Assembly: GCF_000374845.1 (NCBI RefSeq)
Contig: NZ_KB895418.1
Coordinates: forward strand, 248,001-312,000
DNA length: 64,000 nucleotides
Origin: Paenibacillus terrigena DSM 21567
GTDB taxonomy: Bacteria > Bacillota > Bacilli > Paenibacillales > Paenibacillaceae
Direction: 5' to 3'
Shown: in pieces, positions 26,800 through 36,246 of the stretch
Layout: every line of letters starts with the position of its first letter
Position numbering within the stretch: position 1 is the first letter of the stretch
Translations under genes and position numbers: made by a program
Notes under the pieces: generated by a model
The model's database searches: none
What the model was told of the DNA's origin: nothing
What the model saw: only the letters and a program-made list of their open reading frames with translations

Positions 26800-27696
26800 T
26801 TACCCACCATACACAATCGTCGTAAACATTCCCCCAGCAGGCTTCGTGAAGTTATTCGCCATATGATGCGGGATGTGGCAATGAAAGGGCCATATCCCCG
26901 GATTATTTGCTTGAAACATAATGTCGTAGGTCTCGCCTGATGCTACGTTAATCGTATTCTTGATCCGTTGGTGCTCCCAGCCGATGGGATTGCCATCCGA
27001 TGCGATAACATCGAATTGATGCCCGTGAAGATGGATGGGGTGCGCATTCATACCGAGATTGCCAAGGCGAATGCGAACGCGATCCCCGTGTTTCACTGGG
27101 AGTGGTTCGGTATGCGGGAAGCTGCGTCCGTTCATCGTGAAGAAGTTGAACGAGTCCGTGTAAGGATTGATATCGTACACCCCAGGGTTTAGTTCGAATT
27201 TCGGCATCCCGCTCAAGTGGAACTCATGCAGCATGATGAAATAATCTCGGTCTACGGCGAGACCATGACCTGGTGGGTCCAGAATAATAAAAGCACCACC
27301 CATTCCACCCATTTCTTGAGGAATCGCATTGTAATGGGAGTGATACATATGGGTACCGGGCGGATTCTGGACAGTGAATTTATAGGTGAAAGAGTAATAC
27401 GGCGGTATTAGTGGAGAAGGTTCAATGCAAGGCACGCCATCCATCATATTCGGGATATCCAGACCATGCCAATGGACGCTCGTACCCTCACTTAACAGAT
27501 TAGAGACACGAATTTGTACTTCATCTCCCGGGTAGACAAGGATCGTAGGTCCAGGAATCGACCCATTATAGCCAAGTCCACGCAGACGAATTCCAGGCAA
27601 TATCTCAAGCTCTACAGGTTCTGCAATTAATTCGAAATGCTTGACGCCATCCCGAATCTCGAAGGGTAGATTCGGCACTTGGGGCGTAATAACCAT
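26800..27696 (-). CDS. Two-domain multicopper oxidase
   Basis: A 298-residue multicopper oxidase, shorter than the three-domain laccases (about 500 aa). All four copper blocks are present: HWHG, HSHYN, HPIHLHGHQFD, and HCHIPHHMANN with the type 1 site. Two cupredoxin domains per chain suggest a trimer with the trinuclear cluster at subunit interfaces, as in two-domain laccases or nitrite-reductase-like folds. There is no signal peptide, so it may act inside the cell or be built into the spore coat as CotA is. The ribosome site GGAGGAAG precedes ATG 27696. Substrates (phenols, Mn, Fe or Cu ions) cannot be told. Confidence 0.9.
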   Translation of the reverse strand: MVITPQVPNLPFEIRDGVKHFELIAEPVELEILPGIRLRGLGYNGSIPGPTILVYPGDEVQIRVSNLLSEGTSVHWHGLDIPNMMDGVPCIEPSPLIPPYYSFTYKFTVQNPPGTHMYHSHYNAIPQEMGGMGGAFIILDPPGHGLAVDRDYFIMLHEFHLSGMPKFELNPGVYDINPYTDSFNFFTMNGRSFPHTEPLPVKHGDRVRIRLGNLGMNAHPIHLHGHQFDVIASDGNPIGWEHQRIKNTINVASGETYDIMFQANNPGIWPFHCHIPHHMANNFTKPAGGMFTTIVYGG

Positions 27697-28008: not shown

Positions 28009-28238
28009 TTAACACAATAGCCGAATGACGATAACAGTGAAACTAAAAATCGATGTCTATTCCTTCTAATGATCCCCGCAACCGCTTACAATCACATTTT
28101 TGATTGATGTACGCATACTCTCGAGCATTTCCCTTCATTCAGCCTATAGTTATGGATTGCACCCAATGATCTCATCGCATACCGAAGAAGATTCTGGCAT
28201 GGAACCTGATTGATCTGCTAAAGGAGGCAAAATGTATC

Positions 28239-31200
28239 TTGAGAAATCTTAAATTTCTACTATTAACCACGTTTACGGTGATGATCGCCTTTACCATGTT
28301 CCTGATGAGCCAAGAGACGTCGCATGCAGCCGCTATCGGCGACATAACGAAGTTCGAGAAAACCGATGACATGACCTTTACGATTACGAGCGGGAATGAC
28401 AAAGTAAGAGCGATCTTCTATCGCGATGATATGGTTCGGATTTGGCTAGGCGTGAATGGAAGCTTTACCGATGCGCCAGGCAAGAACGGCGGTACGCCGC
28501 TAGAACCGATTGTAATTAAGAATGACTTTGGTCCGACGAATGTGACTTGGTCCGATGAAGGCGCCTACTACAAGATGAAAAGCGGTAAGTTTGTCCTGCG
28601 CGCATACAAGAGTCCGCTGAAATTCGCGATGTATAAGGCAGACAATGCGACCTTGGTATGGGAAGAGCAAGCAAGCCTGAACTATACAGGAACTTCCACC
28701 ACGCAGAAGCTTTCTAGAGGAGCAGATGAATATTTCTATGGTGGCGGGATGCAGAATGGCTACTTCTCGCACCGGGATAAGACAATCAAGATTGGTAATA
28801 ACTTCGGCGGATGGGGCGATGGGACAGTATCCAATCCATCTCCATTCTACTTAAGCACCAATGGATACGGTATGCTGCGGAATACGTTCCGTGAAGGCTC
28901 CTACGATTTTGGAAGCCCGCTAAGTTTGACACATAATGAGAATCGGTTCGATGCGTATTACTTCTACGGGGAGACTATGCGGGATATTCTGAATGGTTAT
29001 ACGGATCTAACCGGGAAGCCGTCGCTGATTCCGAGATGGGGGATGGGACTCGGCGATGCCGATTGTTATAACAAGGCACCGGATACGACCCTTGATGTGC
29101 TTAAAGTTGCTAAGGCTTATCGCGATAACGACATGCCAGGCGCGTGGATTCTCCCGAATGATGGCTATGGCTGCGGTTACGTCAATTTGACGGAGACGGT
29201 ACAGAAGCTGCATGAGCTAGGCTTCTATACAGGGCTCTGGACACAACAGGGTGTCGATCAGATTGCTACCGAAGTCGGTGTTCATGGCACGCGTCTGAAC
29301 AAATTGGACGTCGCATGGGTAGGTTCAGGCCATGATTTTGCGTTAAATGGCTCGAAGCAAGCTTACCAAGGCACCGAGAACAATTCGAATGATCGCGGTT
29401 ATGTATGGTCCATTGCCGGTTGGGCTGGTACACAGCGGTATTCCACCGTCTGGTCAGGCGACCAGGCTGGCGATTGGGAGTTCATCCGATTCCACATCCC
29501 TTCGATGATTGGTGCAGGCTTATCCGGTATGGCTTACTCGACAGGGGATATTGATGGCATCTTCGGTGGTAGCGCGAAGACACATGTGCGTGATTTGCAA
29601 TGGAAAGTATTCACGCCGATCCTGATGAATATGTCAGGCTGGGCTGAGAAGGACAAACAGCCTTGGGTATGGGGCGAACCCTACACGAGCTATAACCGAG
29701 ACTACTTGAAATTACGTCAACGTCTCACGCCGTACTTCTATACGTATTTACACGAATCGTACGTATCGGGAGCTCCGCTGATGCGCGGTATGGTGTACGA
29801 GTTTCCGAATGATCCGAATACGAAGAATACATTAACCCAGTATCAATTCATGTCGGGTGAGAACTTCTTGGTTGCGCCTGTATATACCGATACAACGTTG
29901 CGTAATGGCATTTATTTGCCGAAAGGAAAATGGATTGATTATTGGAGCGGGGCAGAACATTACGGCTCCAAAATGCTCGATGAATACGCAGCGCCACTGA
30001 ACAAATTGCCGTTGTTAGTCAAAGCGGGCGCGATTATTCCGATGTATCCAGAATCGCTCTATGACGGTCAAGTGCCGCCAAATCCGATTACGTATGACAT
30101 CTATCCGTACAAAACATCCAGCTTTAAGATGTATGAAGATGATGGCGTGACGAGAGAGCATCGTCAGGGCAAATATGCAGAGACTCTCATCAAATCGATT
30201 GCGCCAGAGATAGGAACAGGCGAACTTGTCATTCAAGTCGGCGCGACAGTTGGTGATTACAAGGGCAAGCTGGAAGCTCGTAAAAATCAATTTACCATTC
30301 ATATGCATAATAAGCCGGGCAACGTATCGTTAAGCGGTAAACCATTAAATGAATTGGCGAGCAAATCCGCATGGGATGCTGCTGCTAGCGGCTGGTTCTT
30401 CGATGCAGCAGACAAAGGCGGCATCCTGTATGTCAAGACGGAAGAATTACCGACAAATCTAGGATTCGAACTGCGCACGACAGGTTTCGTCGCGGATACA
30501 ACGCCGCTGAAAGACGCGGTTGTCATTGAGATCCCTCAGGAAGATACAGATCCGAGCCGGATTCCGCAAGAAGATATCATAGCAACGGCTTCGAATGCGG
30601 ACAGCTCGACACCTGCGTCCAATGTACTGGATGCAAGCCGTGAATCCATCTGGAGCACAAATCTCACGGGATCAGCTGCATTGCCACAATCCATTACGTT
30701 GAACCTAGGGTCGAATCATTTTATTAACCGGGTCAAAGTTCTTCCACGTCAATATGGTGGTACAAACGGCATCATTACGGAATATAAGCTGTACAGCAGC
30801 TTGGATGGCACGAATTATTCGCTGGTGACGAGCGGGCAATGGAATGAGGATAAGGAAGAGAAGACCGTTGCATTCGATACCGTGGAAGCACAGTACGTTA
30901 AGATTGAAGCCTTGAAGGGTGTGAACGGATTCGCGACAATCGCGGAAGCGAACGTCTATCGTGATCCGACCAAGCCGGCGCCTACGCCGATTAAGAAATC
31001 GGAGATGAAAGCAACCGCTGCAAGCTTCCAATCGGGTAGTGAGGCTTCCAAAGCGATTGATGGTAACTCAAGTACCGTCTGGCATACGAAATGGGATGGT
31101 TCGGATAAACTCCCTCAGTCCATTGTCATTGACCTAGGATCGATCCATGAAATCAGCCAAGTACGATACGCACCACGAACGGATGCAGGTAACGGGACAT

Positions 31201-33377
31201 TCACGAAATACAACTTGTACCTAAGTACAGACGGAACGAATTACACCAATGTGAGCAGCGGGGATTGGGTACGGAATAGCGCGAAGAAATATATCAAGTT
31301 CGCTCCAACGCTAGCTCGGTACGCGAAGCTAGAGGCAGTTCAGGCGGTAGGAGGCTTCGCATCCGCTTCAGAAATCGATGTCTATGACGCGCCGAAAGCG
31401 GAAATTGTGATCTCGAACATTTCCGAAGGCAAAGCGATCTCGGCAGATAGCAGTGATCCTGCTTTTCCTGCGAGCCATGCGAATGATGGCAAGCTGGAGA
31501 CGAGATGGTCTGCAGCAGATAATCTGACAGGTCATACGTTAACAGTGGATTTCGGTAAAATGTATTCGATCCAAGGCTCTGAGACCTCGTTCGAATCCAG
31601 CACGAAGGCTTATCATTACAAAATTGAAGTTCGTGAAGACAATACATCGAATTGGATTCAAGTTGCGAATCGTACAGCAAATACGGAAGCGGGTGCGGTG
31701 GTAAAAGACAACTTCGCCAGCCGCGGAAGGTACGCGCGTATTACGATTACTGGCTTGCCAGATGCGGCAGCGAAAGCGAGTATTTCGGAATTTAAGCTAT
31801 TCGGCTATTCGCTTGGCGGCATTACCAAGGTAACTGGCGTTACTTTGGATAAACCGACGCTTAGCATGGATGTGCTAGGAGCTTCAGCAACACTCATAGC
31901 GACGGTTGCCCCAGTAGATGCATCGATTAAGACCGTAACATGGAGCAGCAGTGATCCTTCCATTGCCATGGTCGATGCGCAAGGTGTCGTGACAGCGAAA
32001 GGTCAAGGTACGGCGACTATTACCGTAACAACGACGGACGGTAATTTCAAAGCAACGAGCGAAGTGACCGTGAAAGGACAAGAGAATTTGGTGAAAATAC
32101 CACAGTCTCAAATGACAGCAACGGCAACAAGCTTCGAAGCAGGCGAGAATGATCCGAAGTATGCGATCGACGGTGATTCTGAGACGCATTGGCACACGAA
32201 ATGGTATAACGTGGATCCACTGCCGCAATCTTTGATGATTGAGCTTGGGGGTACGTATACGATCAGTAAAGTCGACTACTTACCGCGACCAGAGGCGAGC
32301 AACGGTACAATTTTGGCCTATAATTTATATGTCAGTGAAGATGGTGTGAACTATACGAAGGTTGGAAGCGGCAAATGGCTGAGGAACAATCTGTTAAAAG
32401 AGATCAACTTCGCCCCTGTCAAAGCCAAGTTTGTGAAGCTCGAAGCGACGGAAGGTGTCGGTGACTTCGCTTCCGTAGCAGAGCTCAATGTCTATCGTTC
32501 TTCTGATTCCCAAGCGGAGCTTCAATCGATCGCATTGAACGCATCGAGATATACGGTCAAAGTTAATGAGTCGACTTCCGTTCAAGTGACGGCGAAATAT
32601 GCAGATGGATCGAGCAAAGAGGTTACCGCGCAAGTCCAATGGACAGTTGCTCAGCCAACCATTGCTACGCTGACTAGCGGTAGTCTGAAAGGGATTGCCG
32701 TAGGCGATACAGCTATCACAGCAAGCTTTGGCGGCAAAACAGCAACAGCAGATGTACATGTGAATCCTGCGGCTCCGACAAGCCCTGCGACATCCCTTAC
32801 AGGGGATAGCACAGTTCAAGCTGGTAAGGACTTTAAAGTTCGCGTTGGCTTAAACGGTGTAACAACCGACGTCTATGCACAAGAGCTTGCATTGACTTAC
32901 GATACAAGTGCACTTGAAGTGGTAGCCGTAAATCCTGTGAAAGATGGTTTGAATCTTCTACAAAAATCAGATATTAATGGTAAATTGCATTACATTATTG
33001 CAAGCGAAGGCCCAGGCAAAGCGATTAAAGGCGATGCACAAGTCTTGGAGATAACGTTCCGAGCAAAGAGTACGGAGCAAGATCGAACGGCGAACATCAG
33101 CTTGGTTAATGTAGTGCTGGGTGATGCAACAGGAGCAGAGGTTAGTGCGACACCATCATCTTTCCAAATTCAAATTGTAACGGTACCGCAAGGCATCCCA
33201 GGCGACTTTAACCATGACGGCAAAGTGTCGATCGGTGACCTTGCATTGATGGCGCTGAACTACGGTAAGACGACAGCAAGCCCAGATTGGGAGAAGATTA
33301 AACATATGGATCTGAAGAAAGACGGTGTCATCGATATTCTTGATCTGGCAGAAGTAGCGAGTCTGATTCTGAAGTAA
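28239..33377 (+). CDS. Secreted GH31 glycosidase with F5/8C repeats, cohesin and dockerin
   Basis: A 1712-residue extracellular enzyme. Order: signal peptide (1-30); GH31 N-terminal beta domain (about 35-240); GH31 barrel (about 260-600), with probable nucleophile Asp357 in NKLDVAWVG and acid/base Asp408 in WSGDQ; beta-sandwich domains to about 760; three F5/8C (CBM32-like) modules (about 770-1190); a Big_2-like domain (1193-1280); a fourth F5/8C (1285-1420); another Ig-like domain (1425-1505); cohesin (about 1515-1645); and dockerin (1656-1712) with the calcium loop DFNHDGKVSIGD. PNDGYGCGY and the F5/8C-rich layout recall GH31 alpha-N-acetylgalactosaminidases, but substrate is uncertain. The start appears to be TTG 28239 behind AAGGAGG; ATG 28232 is out of frame. 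A second cohesin-dockerin gene follows by 31 bases. Confidence 0.88.
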   Translation: MRNLKFLLLTTFTVMIAFTMFLMSQETSHAAAIGDITKFEKTDDMTFTITSGNDKVRAIFYRDDMVRIWLGVNGSFTDAPGKNGGTPLEPIVIKNDFGPTNVTWSDEGAYYKMKSGKFVLRAYKSPLKFAMYKADNATLVWEEQASLNYTGTSTTQKLSRGADEYFYGGGMQNGYFSHRDKTIKIGNNFGGWGDGTVSNPSPFYLSTNGYGMLRNTFREGSYDFGSPLSLTHNENRFDAYYFYGETMRDILNGYTDLTGKPSLIPRWGMGLGDADCYNKAPDTTLDVLKVAKAYRDNDMPGAWILPNDGYGCGYVNLTETVQKLHELGFYTGLWTQQGVDQIATEVGVHGTRLNKLDVAWVGSGHDFALNGSKQAYQGTENNSNDRGYVWSIAGWAGTQRYSTVWSGDQAGDWEFIRFHIPSMIGAGLSGMAYSTGDIDGIFGGSAKTHVRDLQWKVFTPILMNMSGWAEKDKQPWVWGEPYTSYNRDYLKLRQRLTPYFYTYLHESYVSGAPLMRGMVYEFPNDPNTKNTLTQYQFMSGENFLVAPVYTDTTLRNGIYLPKGKWIDYWSGAEHYGSKMLDEYAAPLNKLPLLVKAGAIIPMYPESLYDGQVPPNPITYDIYPYKTSSFKMYEDDGVTREHRQGKYAETLIKSIAPEIGTGELVIQVGATVGDYKGKLEARKNQFTIHMHNKPGNVSLSGKPLNELASKSAWDAAASGWFFDAADKGGILYVKTEELPTNLGFELRTTGFVADTTPLKDAVVIEIPQEDTDPSRIPQEDIIATASNADSSTPASNVLDASRESIWSTNLTGSAALPQSITLNLGSNHFINRVKVLPRQYGGTNGIITEYKLYSSLDGTNYSLVTSGQWNEDKEEKTVAFDTVEAQYVKIEALKGVNGFATIAEANVYRDPTKPAPTPIKKSEMKATAASFQSGSEASKAIDGNSSTVWHTKWDGSDKLPQSIVIDLGSIHEISQVRYAPRTDAGNGTFTKYNLYLSTDGTNYTNVSSGDWVRNSAKKYIKFAPTLARYAKLEAVQAVGGFASASEIDVYDAPKAEIVISNISEGKAISADSSDPAFPASHANDGKLETRWSAADNLTGHTLTVDFGKMYSIQGSETSFESSTKAYHYKIEVREDNTSNWIQVANRTANTEAGAVVKDNFASRGRYARITITGLPDAAAKASISEFKLFGYSLGGITKVTGVTLDKPTLSMDVLGASATLIATVAPVDASIKTVTWSSSDPSIAMVDAQGVVTAKGQGTATITVTTTDGNFKATSEVTVKGQENLVKIPQSQMTATATSFEAGENDPKYAIDGDSETHWHTKWYNVDPLPQSLMIELGGTYTISKVDYLPRPEASNGTILAYNLYVSEDGVNYTKVGSGKWLRNNLLKEINFAPVKAKFVKLEATEGVGDFASVAELNVYRSSDSQAELQSIALNASRYTVKVNESTSVQVTAKYADGSSKEVTAQVQWTVAQPTIATLTSGSLKGIAVGDTAITASFGGKTATADVHVNPAAPTSPATSLTGDSTVQAGKDFKVRVGLNGVTTDVYAQELALTYDTSALEVVAVNPVKDGLNLLQKSDINGKLHYIIASEGPGKAIKGDAQVLEITFRAKSTEQDRTANISLVNVVLGDATGAEVSATPSSFQIQIVTVPQGIPGDFNHDGKVSIGDLALMALNYGKTTASPDWEKIKHMDLKKDGVIDILDLAEVASLILK

Positions 33378-33408
33378 GCCAAATTTGAATTGGGGAGGAA
33401 GTTAGGCA

Positions 33409-36246
33409 ATGGACATCAAACCGAGTCGCTTCGGGATTTCACAAGTGATGTCGAAGTTACTTATAGCTGCGATGGTTCTTCAATTATTTACCATTTGGGT
33501 GGGTGTGGGTCAAGGGGATGCTGCGGAAGCAGCGTCCCACACCACTACGAAACGTCCAGACGGTAAGAATCTTGTTTTTCCGGTGCTAAGTGACATTCAT
33601 ATCGGTCATACACCGAAGGATGTTCCGAAATGGCAGATGGTATTGAACCAGCTGAAGGCCATTGCGCCGAACTATGACGCGTTAGCAGCAGTTGGCGATA
33701 TTACGGACAGTGGGACGGTTGCTCAATATGACACGTTAATGAGCAATTACAACAACTTGAAAGTCCCGAATGCAGTGTCACTCTTCACCATTGGGAATCA
33801 TGATTATATCAATGGATCAGCAGGTGCGATGCAGCAGCGCTTTAAAGACAAGACGGGTATGAGCGGCATCTATTATGACCAGTGGATCAACGGTTATCAT
33901 TTCATTATTCTGGGGAGCGAGGATGGTACGCGGGATGGTACGCTCTCTGATGCTCAGCTAAATTGGCTTGATACGAAACTCGCAGAGGAGGCAGATCCTA
34001 ACAAACCCATCTTCGTGTTCTTGCATCAACCGATTACGAATACGGTCTACGGCAGTGATTTATGGGGACATAAACAGAATGCAACGAAGCTGTACAATAC
34101 GATTGCGAAATATCCGCAAGTCATCACATTCTCAGGACATTCCCATTACGTTCTAGATGATCCAGGCTCTATCAACCAACGCGATTTCACAGCAGTCGGT
34201 ACGGCTGCAGTACGTTATCCAGAATTAGAGCCAGGCAAAATTCAGGGTATTCATCCGAGTGATGAGATCACACAAGGGCTTGTCGTTGAAGTGCTTGATA
34301 ACGAAGTACACATCAAACGGAGAGATTTCCATACCAATGCTTGGACAGGGGACGATTGGGTCGTCAAGTATCCAGCCGTGAAAAATCAATTCACGTATAC
34401 GGATGACCGGGACAAAATCAAGCCTTCATTTCCTGCATCGGCTAAAGCCACGATTGATCCATCCAGCATCGGTCCGAAGCAAATGCGTGTAACCTTCAAT
34501 CAAGCGACAGATAACTTGTTCGTTCGTTCCTATGAGGTGAAAGCGATTAACGTGGCAACTGGAGGGACGGTGCAATCGTTCCTCGCGTTCGCCCAGCAAT
34601 ATGACGATCCGGCGCCGACGCAGCTATCGTTCGATATTAGCGGACTTCAGCCGGAGACTAAATATCGGATTGAGGTCACAGCGATTGATTCCTTCAACAA
34701 CCGTAGCGACGCACCACTTCAAGTGGAGGCGACAACAGGGAACAAACCTGTAATTGAGAAGCCGGTTGCGGATGTCATCGATATTGACTTTATCGATGGC
34801 ACAGGGAAGGATCGTTCACCAGCACAGAACAACGCGACAACAACGGGCAGCAGCGCTAAGATTGTCTATAGCTCTGAATTTAAGAAGTATGTTGCCCGTA
34901 TGAACGGTACAACCGATGAATATTTCAGTATTCCGGTCAGCAGCTCGATCAAGAATGTGAAGAATCAATTTACGCTAGAATCCTTATTCAAGTTGAACTC
35001 CACGCGCAACCAAGATGTATTCGGAAATACGCAGAGCTCCGGTATGATATTTGAATCAACAACGACTGGGAAAATGGAGTTATGGGCACACATCGGCGGC
35101 AGCTATAAGCGTCTAGGCGTTCAATTGGAGCCGAACAAAATTCATAATCTTGTCGCGACCTATGACGGTGCTCAAATCCTCCTCTTCCTAAATGGCACTC
35201 AAGTTGGTTCGATGGCAGCGACGGGCACGATTGCTCAATCAGATATCCAATTTGCGATTGGTGCTGATCCTGAAGCAAATAATCGCGGGAACTATGTATT
35301 AGATGGCGATGTGAGCGTCGCGAGATTATACAGCTATGCGATTTATCCGGAGCAAGTACAAATGCTCTATAATGAACTGGCGCAGCGAATGTCTATCGAG
35401 GAAATGAATACGTTGTATAACGACATTCAGTCTGCCAGACAATTGGCAAGTGATACGTCTGTCGTCGGGACGAATCCGGGACAGTATCCTGCAAGCGCGA
35501 TGAATATGTACACAACGAAGATTAACGCAGCTGAGCTTGTAATTAAGACTAGAACCGTTACGCAGGCAGAGGTTCAAGCTGCAATTCAGCAGTTGAAAGA
35601 AGCCAAAACCGAGCTCGACAAATCGAAAAATGTACCTGAAGCGAATCACATAACAGCCCTAGCAGCAAGCAAGGATGCTGTAGAGGAAGGGCAACCGTTC
35701 ACGGTGAAGCTAGCTATTAATCGCGTTACCAAGAGCGTCTATGCTGAAGATGTGACGATTCAGTATGATGCGAGCTTGCTTGAATACGTGGATGCAAAGT
35801 CTTTGCAATCTAACCTTCATCTCATACCAAATGCATCCAAAACCCCAGGAACAGTAAGGTTCATTCTTGCAAGTATGGGAGCTGACAAAGGAATCTCGGG
35901 AGATACCGACGTGCTCGAGATGACATTTAAGGCCAAACCAGTTGATCAAGCTGCATCGGCAAAAGTAGCCGTCAACAAAACCGTGTTAGCGGATGAAAAT
36001 GGTCAAGAGCTTGAAGCAAGTCTTTCGACTATTAACGTGCAAGTCACACCAATTTCAGGACCAAGTTCACCGGACGTGAACCATGATGGAAAAGTTAGTA
36101 TCGGTGACCTCGCGATAATCGCAGCACATTATGGCAAGACAACAGCAAGCCTAGACTGGCAGCAAGTGAAGCAATATGACTTGGACCATGACGGCAAAAT
36201 TGACATCTCTGACCTTTCGGCAGTTGCGTCTCAGATTATTAAGTAA
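33409..36246 (+). CDS. Secreted metallophosphatase with LamG-like, FIVAR, cohesin and dockerin domains
   Basis: A 945-residue extracellular protein. A long signal peptide (about 1-42) precedes a calcineurin-type phosphoesterase (about 52-330) with DIH (Asp62, His64), GDITD (Asp97), GNHD (130-132), HQP (His206) and GHSH (243-246). Then come an FN3-like domain (about 340-445), a concanavalin/LamG-like domain (455-665), a helical FIVAR module (about 670-745), cohesin (750-875) and a dockerin (885-945) with DVNHDGKVSIGD and DLDHDGKIDISD loops. The dockerin is very close to that of the GH31 protein. GGGGAGGAAG precedes the ATG. It could remove phosphate from glycans or lipids; the substrate is not visible. 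It forms an operon with GH31 and ends at a bidirectional terminator. Confidence 0.88.
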   Translation: MDIKPSRFGISQVMSKLLIAAMVLQLFTIWVGVGQGDAAEAASHTTTKRPDGKNLVFPVLSDIHIGHTPKDVPKWQMVLNQLKAIAPNYDALAAVGDITDSGTVAQYDTLMSNYNNLKVPNAVSLFTIGNHDYINGSAGAMQQRFKDKTGMSGIYYDQWINGYHFIILGSEDGTRDGTLSDAQLNWLDTKLAEEADPNKPIFVFLHQPITNTVYGSDLWGHKQNATKLYNTIAKYPQVITFSGHSHYVLDDPGSINQRDFTAVGTAAVRYPELEPGKIQGIHPSDEITQGLVVEVLDNEVHIKRRDFHTNAWTGDDWVVKYPAVKNQFTYTDDRDKIKPSFPASAKATIDPSSIGPKQMRVTFNQATDNLFVRSYEVKAINVATGGTVQSFLAFAQQYDDPAPTQLSFDISGLQPETKYRIEVTAIDSFNNRSDAPLQVEATTGNKPVIEKPVADVIDIDFIDGTGKDRSPAQNNATTTGSSAKIVYSSEFKKYVARMNGTTDEYFSIPVSSSIKNVKNQFTLESLFKLNSTRNQDVFGNTQSSGMIFESTTTGKMELWAHIGGSYKRLGVQLEPNKIHNLVATYDGAQILLFLNGTQVGSMAATGTIAQSDIQFAIGADPEANNRGNYVLDGDVSVARLYSYAIYPEQVQMLYNELAQRMSIEEMNTLYNDIQSARQLASDTSVVGTNPGQYPASAMNMYTTKINAAELVIKTRTVTQAEVQAAIQQLKEAKTELDKSKNVPEANHITALAASKDAVEEGQPFTVKLAINRVTKSVYAEDVTIQYDASLLEYVDAKSLQSNLHLIPNASKTPGTVRFILASMGADKGISGDTDVLEMTFKAKPVDQAASAKVAVNKTVLADENGQELEASLSTINVQVTPISGPSSPDVNHDGKVSIGDLAIIAAHYGKTTASLDWQQVKQYDLDHDGKIDISDLSAVASQIIK

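Follow-up and report, generated by a model that had tools for sequence, protein, structure and literature searches.

The analysed window, a stretch of 64,000 nucleotides from the genome of Paenibacillus terrigena DSM 21567 (G000; 6.36 Mb, 40 contigs, 99.99% complete), harbours two adjacent genes on the plus strand, whose products both end in a cohesin followed by a dockerin. According to Pfam and PDB comparisons, the first gene (P1, 28239..33377, plus strand) encodes a GH31 protein of 1712 aa with a signal-like start, the GH31 part, four F5/8 type C stretches, a Big_2 domain, the cohesin and the dockerin. The catalytic part (28413..30302, residues 59-688; Pfam, PDB) comprises mutarotase-like, TIM barrel, C-terminal and DUF5110 domains (Pfam). 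Among solved structures it is nearest to the GH31 alpha-N-acetylgalactosaminidases 6M76 (8e-127) and 7F7R (4.1e-126), whereas the next solved GH31 of a different kind reaches only 1.2e-63 in the PDB comparison. The P1 cohesin lies at 32793..33173 (residues 1519-1645; Pfam E 3.1e-14, 53.8 bits, cut-off 24.1) and the dockerin at 33198..33365 (residues 1654-1709; Dockerin_1, E 1.5e-6, 28.7 bits, cut-off 22.9). P1 uses TTG as start codon, preceded by AAAGGAGG. A frame of six codons (28232-28252) begins at an ATG just behind AAAGGAGG, out of frame with P1, and overlaps this TTG at 28239.

Only 31 bases separate the stop codon of P1 from the start of the second gene (P2, 33409..36246, plus strand), which encodes a phosphoesterase-like protein of 945 aa (Pfam, NCBIfam, PDB). 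Behind a signal-like start, judged by eye as in P1, follow the phosphoesterase domain, a laminin-G-like domain (LamG; 34912..35361, residues 502-651; Pfam E 3.9e-14), a weak FIVAR (35440..35619, residues 678-737; 25.7 bits, below the Pfam cut-off of 29.2), the cohesin (35674..36021, residues 756-871; E 7.9e-15, 55.7 bits) and the dockerin (36073..36237, residues 889-943; Dockerin_1, E 1.2e-7, 32.2 bits). The phosphoesterase domain (33628..34161, residues 74-251) has no Pfam match at E<=1; it was placed by the NCBIfam cyclic-AMP phosphodiesterase model PRK11148 (E 1.1e-13; 51.4 bits, below the cut-off of 225) and by the solved phosphohydrolase 2ZO9 (6.0e-6), and also matches 2DXL (6.1e-6). All four cohesin and dockerin matches exceed the curated Pfam cut-offs, and the first-pass annotation, which had read both C-termini as cohesin then dockerin, was correct in this respect. 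Among solved structures, glycosidases of Clostridium perfringens (2VO8, 2W1N, 2JH2) have the nearest cohesin folds; the first-pass annotation had mentioned comparable modules in these enzymes. A second fold comparison covers mainly residues 1-133, so that the dockerin fold is assigned from sequence. Besides, the minus strand of the window holds a 298-aa frame (26800-27696) with the motifs HWHG, HSH, HPIHLHGH and HCHIPHH, which we take to be typical for multicopper oxidases.

P1 and P2 share the calcium loop NHDGKVSIGD and the linker motif YGKTTAS. This likeness had been pointed out beforehand and is real, yet it extends across the family: the P1 and P2 tandems are 43% identical, while the other 22 sequences of the alignment are 32-44% identical to P2. 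Since both are thus no more alike than the others, the shared motifs are a property of the family. For the same reason, together with the signature common to all 35 tandem dockerins of the genome, a neighbour-specific P1-P2 pairing read from the motifs was rejected. In these 35 dockerins, aligned from their Pfam matches, the D and N of loop 1, the Y-G and the W are invariant. Position 10 of loop 1 is always I or V and position 11 is G (32) or A (3), while position 11 of loop 2 is free to vary. We counted in the own-genome set, as per-position conservation among the relatives is biased at positions 141-150, where the pattern used for choosing their loci is located. A single signature in all dockerins suggests that the paralogues could be interchangeable, and the asymmetry of a constrained loop 1 and a free loop 2 position suggests one binding face. 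In P1, the second loop DLKKDGVIDILD has K at a position that is usually N or D, and that is N, D or T in 34 of the 35 tandem dockerins; this imperfect loop counts against the plug role proposed below.

The genome search for further cohesin and dockerin genes, advised in the first-pass annotation, returned 38 cohesin matches (Pfam, E<=1) and 38 dockerin matches above the cut-off, with three more dockerins below it. They fall into 41 frames: 35 carry one of each module, three a cohesin only and three a dockerin only. Among the 38 cohesin matches, and hence for Pfam-detectable cohesins of this genome, no frame holds two cohesins, and neither a classical scaffoldin with several cohesins nor glycosidase-free scaffoldins with tandem cohesins of the Limousia type were found. 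The cohesin-only frames are two SLH proteins and one frame interrupted by the end of contig C5, of which the dockerin-only frame at the end of contig C33 seems to be the remainder. The second dockerin-only frame (L077, 5396-5848 of G000:C8; 151 aa) has a start that resembles a cohesin tail, followed by a dockerin; it comes immediately behind a full tandem gene and is read as a decayed or frameshifted second copy. The third (L088, 2608-3690 of G000:C5; 361 aa) has a signal-like start, Big_2 and a dockerin; as the sole clear lone dockerin of the genome, it is a possible chain end. The spacer between the Pfam matches of the two modules measures 7-19 residues in 24 frames; in the 11 others it is 82-92 residues long (one wrong pairing at -1025 bases was omitted) and by eye resembles a FIVAR-like insert. 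Genome G001 has 36 cohesin and 28 dockerin matches.

The cargo scan covered 33 of the 35 tandem frames, and beyond P1 and P2 the first 975 residues or fewer; the remaining two are a short piece of 199 aa where a contig ends and a frame of 315 aa that lacks a start. At least 22 of the 33 carry a GH or PL family (E<=1e-6), namely GH31, GH20 (three), GH101 (two), GH95 (five), GH29 (two), GH43 (two), GH2 (two), GH84, GH85, GH38, GH116 and PL8. One further tandem protein has a GLAA-B barrel, presumably that of GH110-like enzymes, and the remainder have beta-helices, SpoIID, DUF4855, accessory domains alone or no match. The SpoIID frame (L080, 1002-6779 of G000:C5; 1926 aa) shows no glycosidase in its first 975 residues and perhaps acts on peptidoglycan. 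GH101, GH84, GH85, GH20, GH29 and GH95 target animal-type glycoproteins and mucins. Together with the alpha-N-acetylgalactosaminidase-like GH31, these families form a mucin-type set on dockerin proteins (GH101 twice, GH20 three times, GH29 twice, GH95 five times, GH84 and GH85 once each), which points to mucin-type glycans as substrates; the GH43 pair allows for other substrates as well.

The first-pass annotation saw no anchor and expected a released complex, an expectation contradicted by the two SLH proteins with cohesin in the same genome. One of them (L070; 348 aa) has a signal-like start, one cohesin and three SLH, and is encoded downstream of two tandem enzymes (GH20, GH101). The other (L087, 608-7051 of G000:C1, minus strand; 2148 aa) combines NAGPA and metallophosphatase domains with three SLH stretches and a weak cohesin (29.2 bits) that does not reach E<=1e-5 in the family scan, and would be enzyme and anchor in one. 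In a midpoint-rooted tree of 130 cohesins, built from the genome's own cohesins, the anchors and 69 of 138 enzyme cohesins of relatives, 23 anchor cohesins of relatives and that of L070 form a clade without enzyme cohesins (support 1.0). At conserved positions they read YGYE/FAHTKIG against YAQD/RFILAS in the enzymes, and due to this divergence one dockerin may not bind both kinds.

Across the family, 35 of 118 genomes contain anchor-type cohesins (78 matches at >=76 bits; 24 of 102 matches below this threshold were left out, which lowered the number of genomes from 43 to 35). Among the tandem matches listed, which for G000 and G001 are a few only, including those adjoining anchors, an anchor-type cohesin occurs in 24 of 27 genomes with a full tandem versus 11 of 91 others (Fisher value 1.2e-13, relatedness ignored). 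The full-tandem genomes G057, G112 and G119 have no anchor-type match at >=76 bits. A listed tandem or cohesin lies within 2.5 kb on the same strand for 35 of the 78 matches, and the anchor is downstream in 34 of these; for the other 43, no tandem lies within 2.5 kb among the matches listed. SLH was checked in the loci that were read, and each of the nine anchor proteins of set A1 has three SLH stretches by a custom profile, of which three of the nine are seeds. At least two of the 78 matches belong to large frames, of 1644 and 3027 aa.

For the relatives, we examined 64 loci selected by the tandem search from the best 80 of 213 relatives, with 28 records labelled Paenibacillus, 'Bacillus' or Cohnella as their source; frames were taken from stop to stop (>=100 aa), and repeats were removed by their last 150 residues. 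The distinct frames comprise 138 with cohesin and dockerin, two with an additional weak cohesin-like signal, 22 anchors with three SLH, a further anchor truncated at the locus border and three partial cohesins. Each of the 23 anchors has a dockerin frame at most 338 bases away (stop to stop), in 21 cases on the same strand. L128 and L143 came up as candidate polyvalent scaffoldins with three and two cohesins and were rejected, as their extra matches reach just 9-14 bits.

Two groups of relatives are informative about the partners of the modules. Three genomes (G013, 99% complete in one contig; G017 and G045, 87-89% complete) have one above-cut-off dockerin each, located on a cohesin protein, and a second cohesin on an adjacent protein with three SLH stretches; G017 holds one further half-dockerin match below the cut-off. 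In these genomes no partners were therefore found except the anchor and proteins of the enzyme's own kind. Besides, several proteins with cohesin and dockerin are too short for a catalytic domain (L104, 245 aa; L145, 296 aa; G067, 245 aa; G108, 244 aa). They have a signal-like start and are encoded between larger tandem genes (L104, L145) or beside a tandem gene (G067, G108). Two others carry both modules twice as Coh-Doc-Coh-Doc (G048, 472 aa; G106, 550 aa), and in G106 three genes in a row encode a tandem protein (truncated at the locus border, with no catalytic domain in view), an anchor and the Coh-Doc-Coh-Doc protein. Such enzyme-free proteins make sense as links; as they are hard to explain otherwise, they argue that the modules connect different molecules.

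Some gene pairs deviate from this scheme. In L100 (G006:C1, about 4670993-4672751), the gene in front of the anchor gene encodes a cohesin protein; its dockerin-like end is without most of the usual calcium ligands and has no Pfam dockerin match, and in this pair the plug may be on its way to loss or change. Another, divergent form of the pair, a Coh-Doc protein next to a cohesin protein of 412-420 aa, is found in L095 (G004:C48) and, going by the match entries, similarly in G012 and G022. In L095 the dockerin is without the IGDLA signature, and the partner has three SLH stretches.

Based on these genes, we lean towards a genome-wide, scaffoldin-free cellulosome-like system, in which the enzymes would dock both to S-layer anchors and to one another. 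Each enzyme, probably secreted, would bring a dockerin as plug and a cohesin as socket to mucin-type glycans, while a separate protein with a single cohesin and three SLH would present its socket on the S-layer or the cell wall. The dockerin of an enzyme would enter either the anchor socket or the socket of an enzyme already docked, and promiscuous paralogues could in this way grow into head-to-tail chains of mixed composition hanging from the wall. The complex is probably tethered to the cell, and some enzyme molecules may form free oligomers too. The assembly without scaffoldin proposed in the first-pass annotation is the best reading, Pfam finding no two-cohesin frame in the genome, but it would involve dozens of proteins. 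In a broader and more tentative reading, for which we see somewhat less than an even chance, the Paenibacillaceae would own a class of daisy-chain megacomplexes in which each enzyme scaffolds the next. Their starting point would be an SLH cohesin, frequently the product of a gene immediately downstream; links of the enzyme-free Coh-Doc and (Coh-Doc)x2 kind would lengthen them, and the rare proteins with a lone dockerin might terminate them. Expression levels rather than a fixed scaffoldin would determine how long these chains are and what they contain.

A simpler arrangement, which we consider unlikely, is that the dockerin fixes each enzyme singly on an SLH cohesin, whereas its own cohesin stays idle or binds a glycan or another protein. 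The single-dockerin genomes require just this anchor contact. Moreover, in C. perfringens the cohesins of GH3 and of a GH31 with both modules bound no dockerin, the latter in an ELISA (PMC12997984, section 22), which counts against a simple reading of P1. However, anchoring alone leaves unexplained why all 140 dockerin frames in the 64 loci keep a cohesin (a count biased that way by the tandem-based selection), what the enzyme-free Coh-Doc and (Coh-Doc)x2 proteins are for, and how 35 tandem proteins are served by just two SLH cohesins. The opposite case, the earlier proposal of enzymes that pair or chain mutually and are then released, appears improbable to us: it agrees with the lack of a multi-cohesin frame in the genome and with the pairing described for C. 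perfringens enzymes (PMC12997984), but not with the SLH cohesin proteins of the genome or with an anchor-type gene downstream of tandems in relatives.

We give still less credit to an intramolecular latch, in which the dockerin fills its own cohesin and yields a compact, stable C-terminal end. The modules do adjoin, with a commonest spacer of 8 residues, and AlphaFold3 predicts that the cohesin of the C. perfringens GH31 contacts the dockerin of the same protein, the two being modelled as separate domains, and also that of GH2 (PMC12997984). Nevertheless, spacer length in the relatives' tandems varies between 1-17 residues in 128 of 138 and 75-90 in 10 of 138. Our AlphaFold2 models predict well-folded modules both for cohesin plus dockerin (pLDDT 91.7, pTM 0.67) and with the FIVAR in between (pLDDT 96.1, pTM 0.73); the structure alignment held 100 of 110 sequences, and alignment A4 held 54, including eight of the ten long-spacer tandems. 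Due to the modest pTM, the relative placement of the modules is not confidently predicted; the models show no confident self-closure, which is weak evidence against a latch and none on binding. The scavenging of dockerin enzymes shed by other microbes seems very improbable to us: it has been raised in print as a possibility for P. guangzhouensis (PMC11557425), but the genome itself encodes dockerins and cohesins in equal number (38 each).

In cellulosome theory, the scaffoldin sets the number and order of the enzymes. If every enzyme were its own adaptor, as in the chain model favoured here, scaffoldins would be dispensable for a tethered multi-enzyme complex. Nature would then supply units, each a single protein, from which enzyme polymers can be built, and the enzyme pairs of C. 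perfringens would be connected with anchored machines. For the question of what the enzyme cohesin binds, the three relatives that possess a single dockerin enzyme and a single anchor provide a minimal set of two proteins.

The system resembles several known ones. C. perfringens has five cohesin and five dockerin glycoside hydrolases in pairwise contact (PMC12997984). Their modules are mostly on different enzymes, as the first-pass annotation had stated, and a GH31 with both modules is reported there and in Akkermansia. Shared features are the X82-kind cohesin, with C. perfringens providing the nearest sequences to the P1 cohesin, mucin-type hydrolases and the FIVAR-dockerin 2JNK/2OZN, which is the best dockerin match of P1 and the second of P2. 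Here, in contrast, 35 frames hold both modules versus one GH31 there, and SLH, present here, does not appear in the main text of PMC12997984. The Limousia mucinolysome also combines Coh-Doc modules on mucin-type hydrolases with a wall-anchored cohesin, in our case deduced from genes, but differs by glycosidase-free scaffoldins (two with tandem cohesins), an LPxTG anchor and hydrolases as dockerin carriers (PMC12997984). With classical cellulosomes and monovalent adaptor scaffoldins, it shares the module types, proteins with one cohesin and one dockerin, and enzymes with dockerin; unlike there, no multi-cohesin frame occurs here and the adaptors are themselves enzymes (PMC11557425). The multienzyme complex of P. 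curdlanolyticus B-6 has the genus and the extracellular location in common, SLH is a frequent word in its description, and its hypothetical scaffold S1 is characterized by cellulose binding and xylanase activity, while the literature entry shows no cohesin-dockerin pairs (PMC6823336).

The closest system in print is that of P. guangzhouensis, in which 35 proteins contain a cohesin (PMC11557425). Of these, 28 have one dockerin-cohesin pair, in many cases together with an N-terminal glycoside hydrolase including GH31; there are five SLH-anchoring cohesin proteins, and just one dockerin occurs outside the cohesin proteins (PMC11557425). Its authors suggest an enzyme-rich surface, regard a conventional cellulosome as unlikely and offer undetected dockerins or scavenging as explanations (PMC11557425). 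Our genome likewise has the single dockerin-cohesin pair with N-terminal hydrolases and SLH proteins with cohesin, and the type of system is therefore already known. A literature search by titles and abstract openings, which covered few subscription papers, found no family-wide system of this kind. Unlike that account of one species (PMC11557425), our data include an anchor clade and, new as far as this search shows, the spread across the family, the gene order of the anchors, the single-dockerin genomes and the enzyme-free links.
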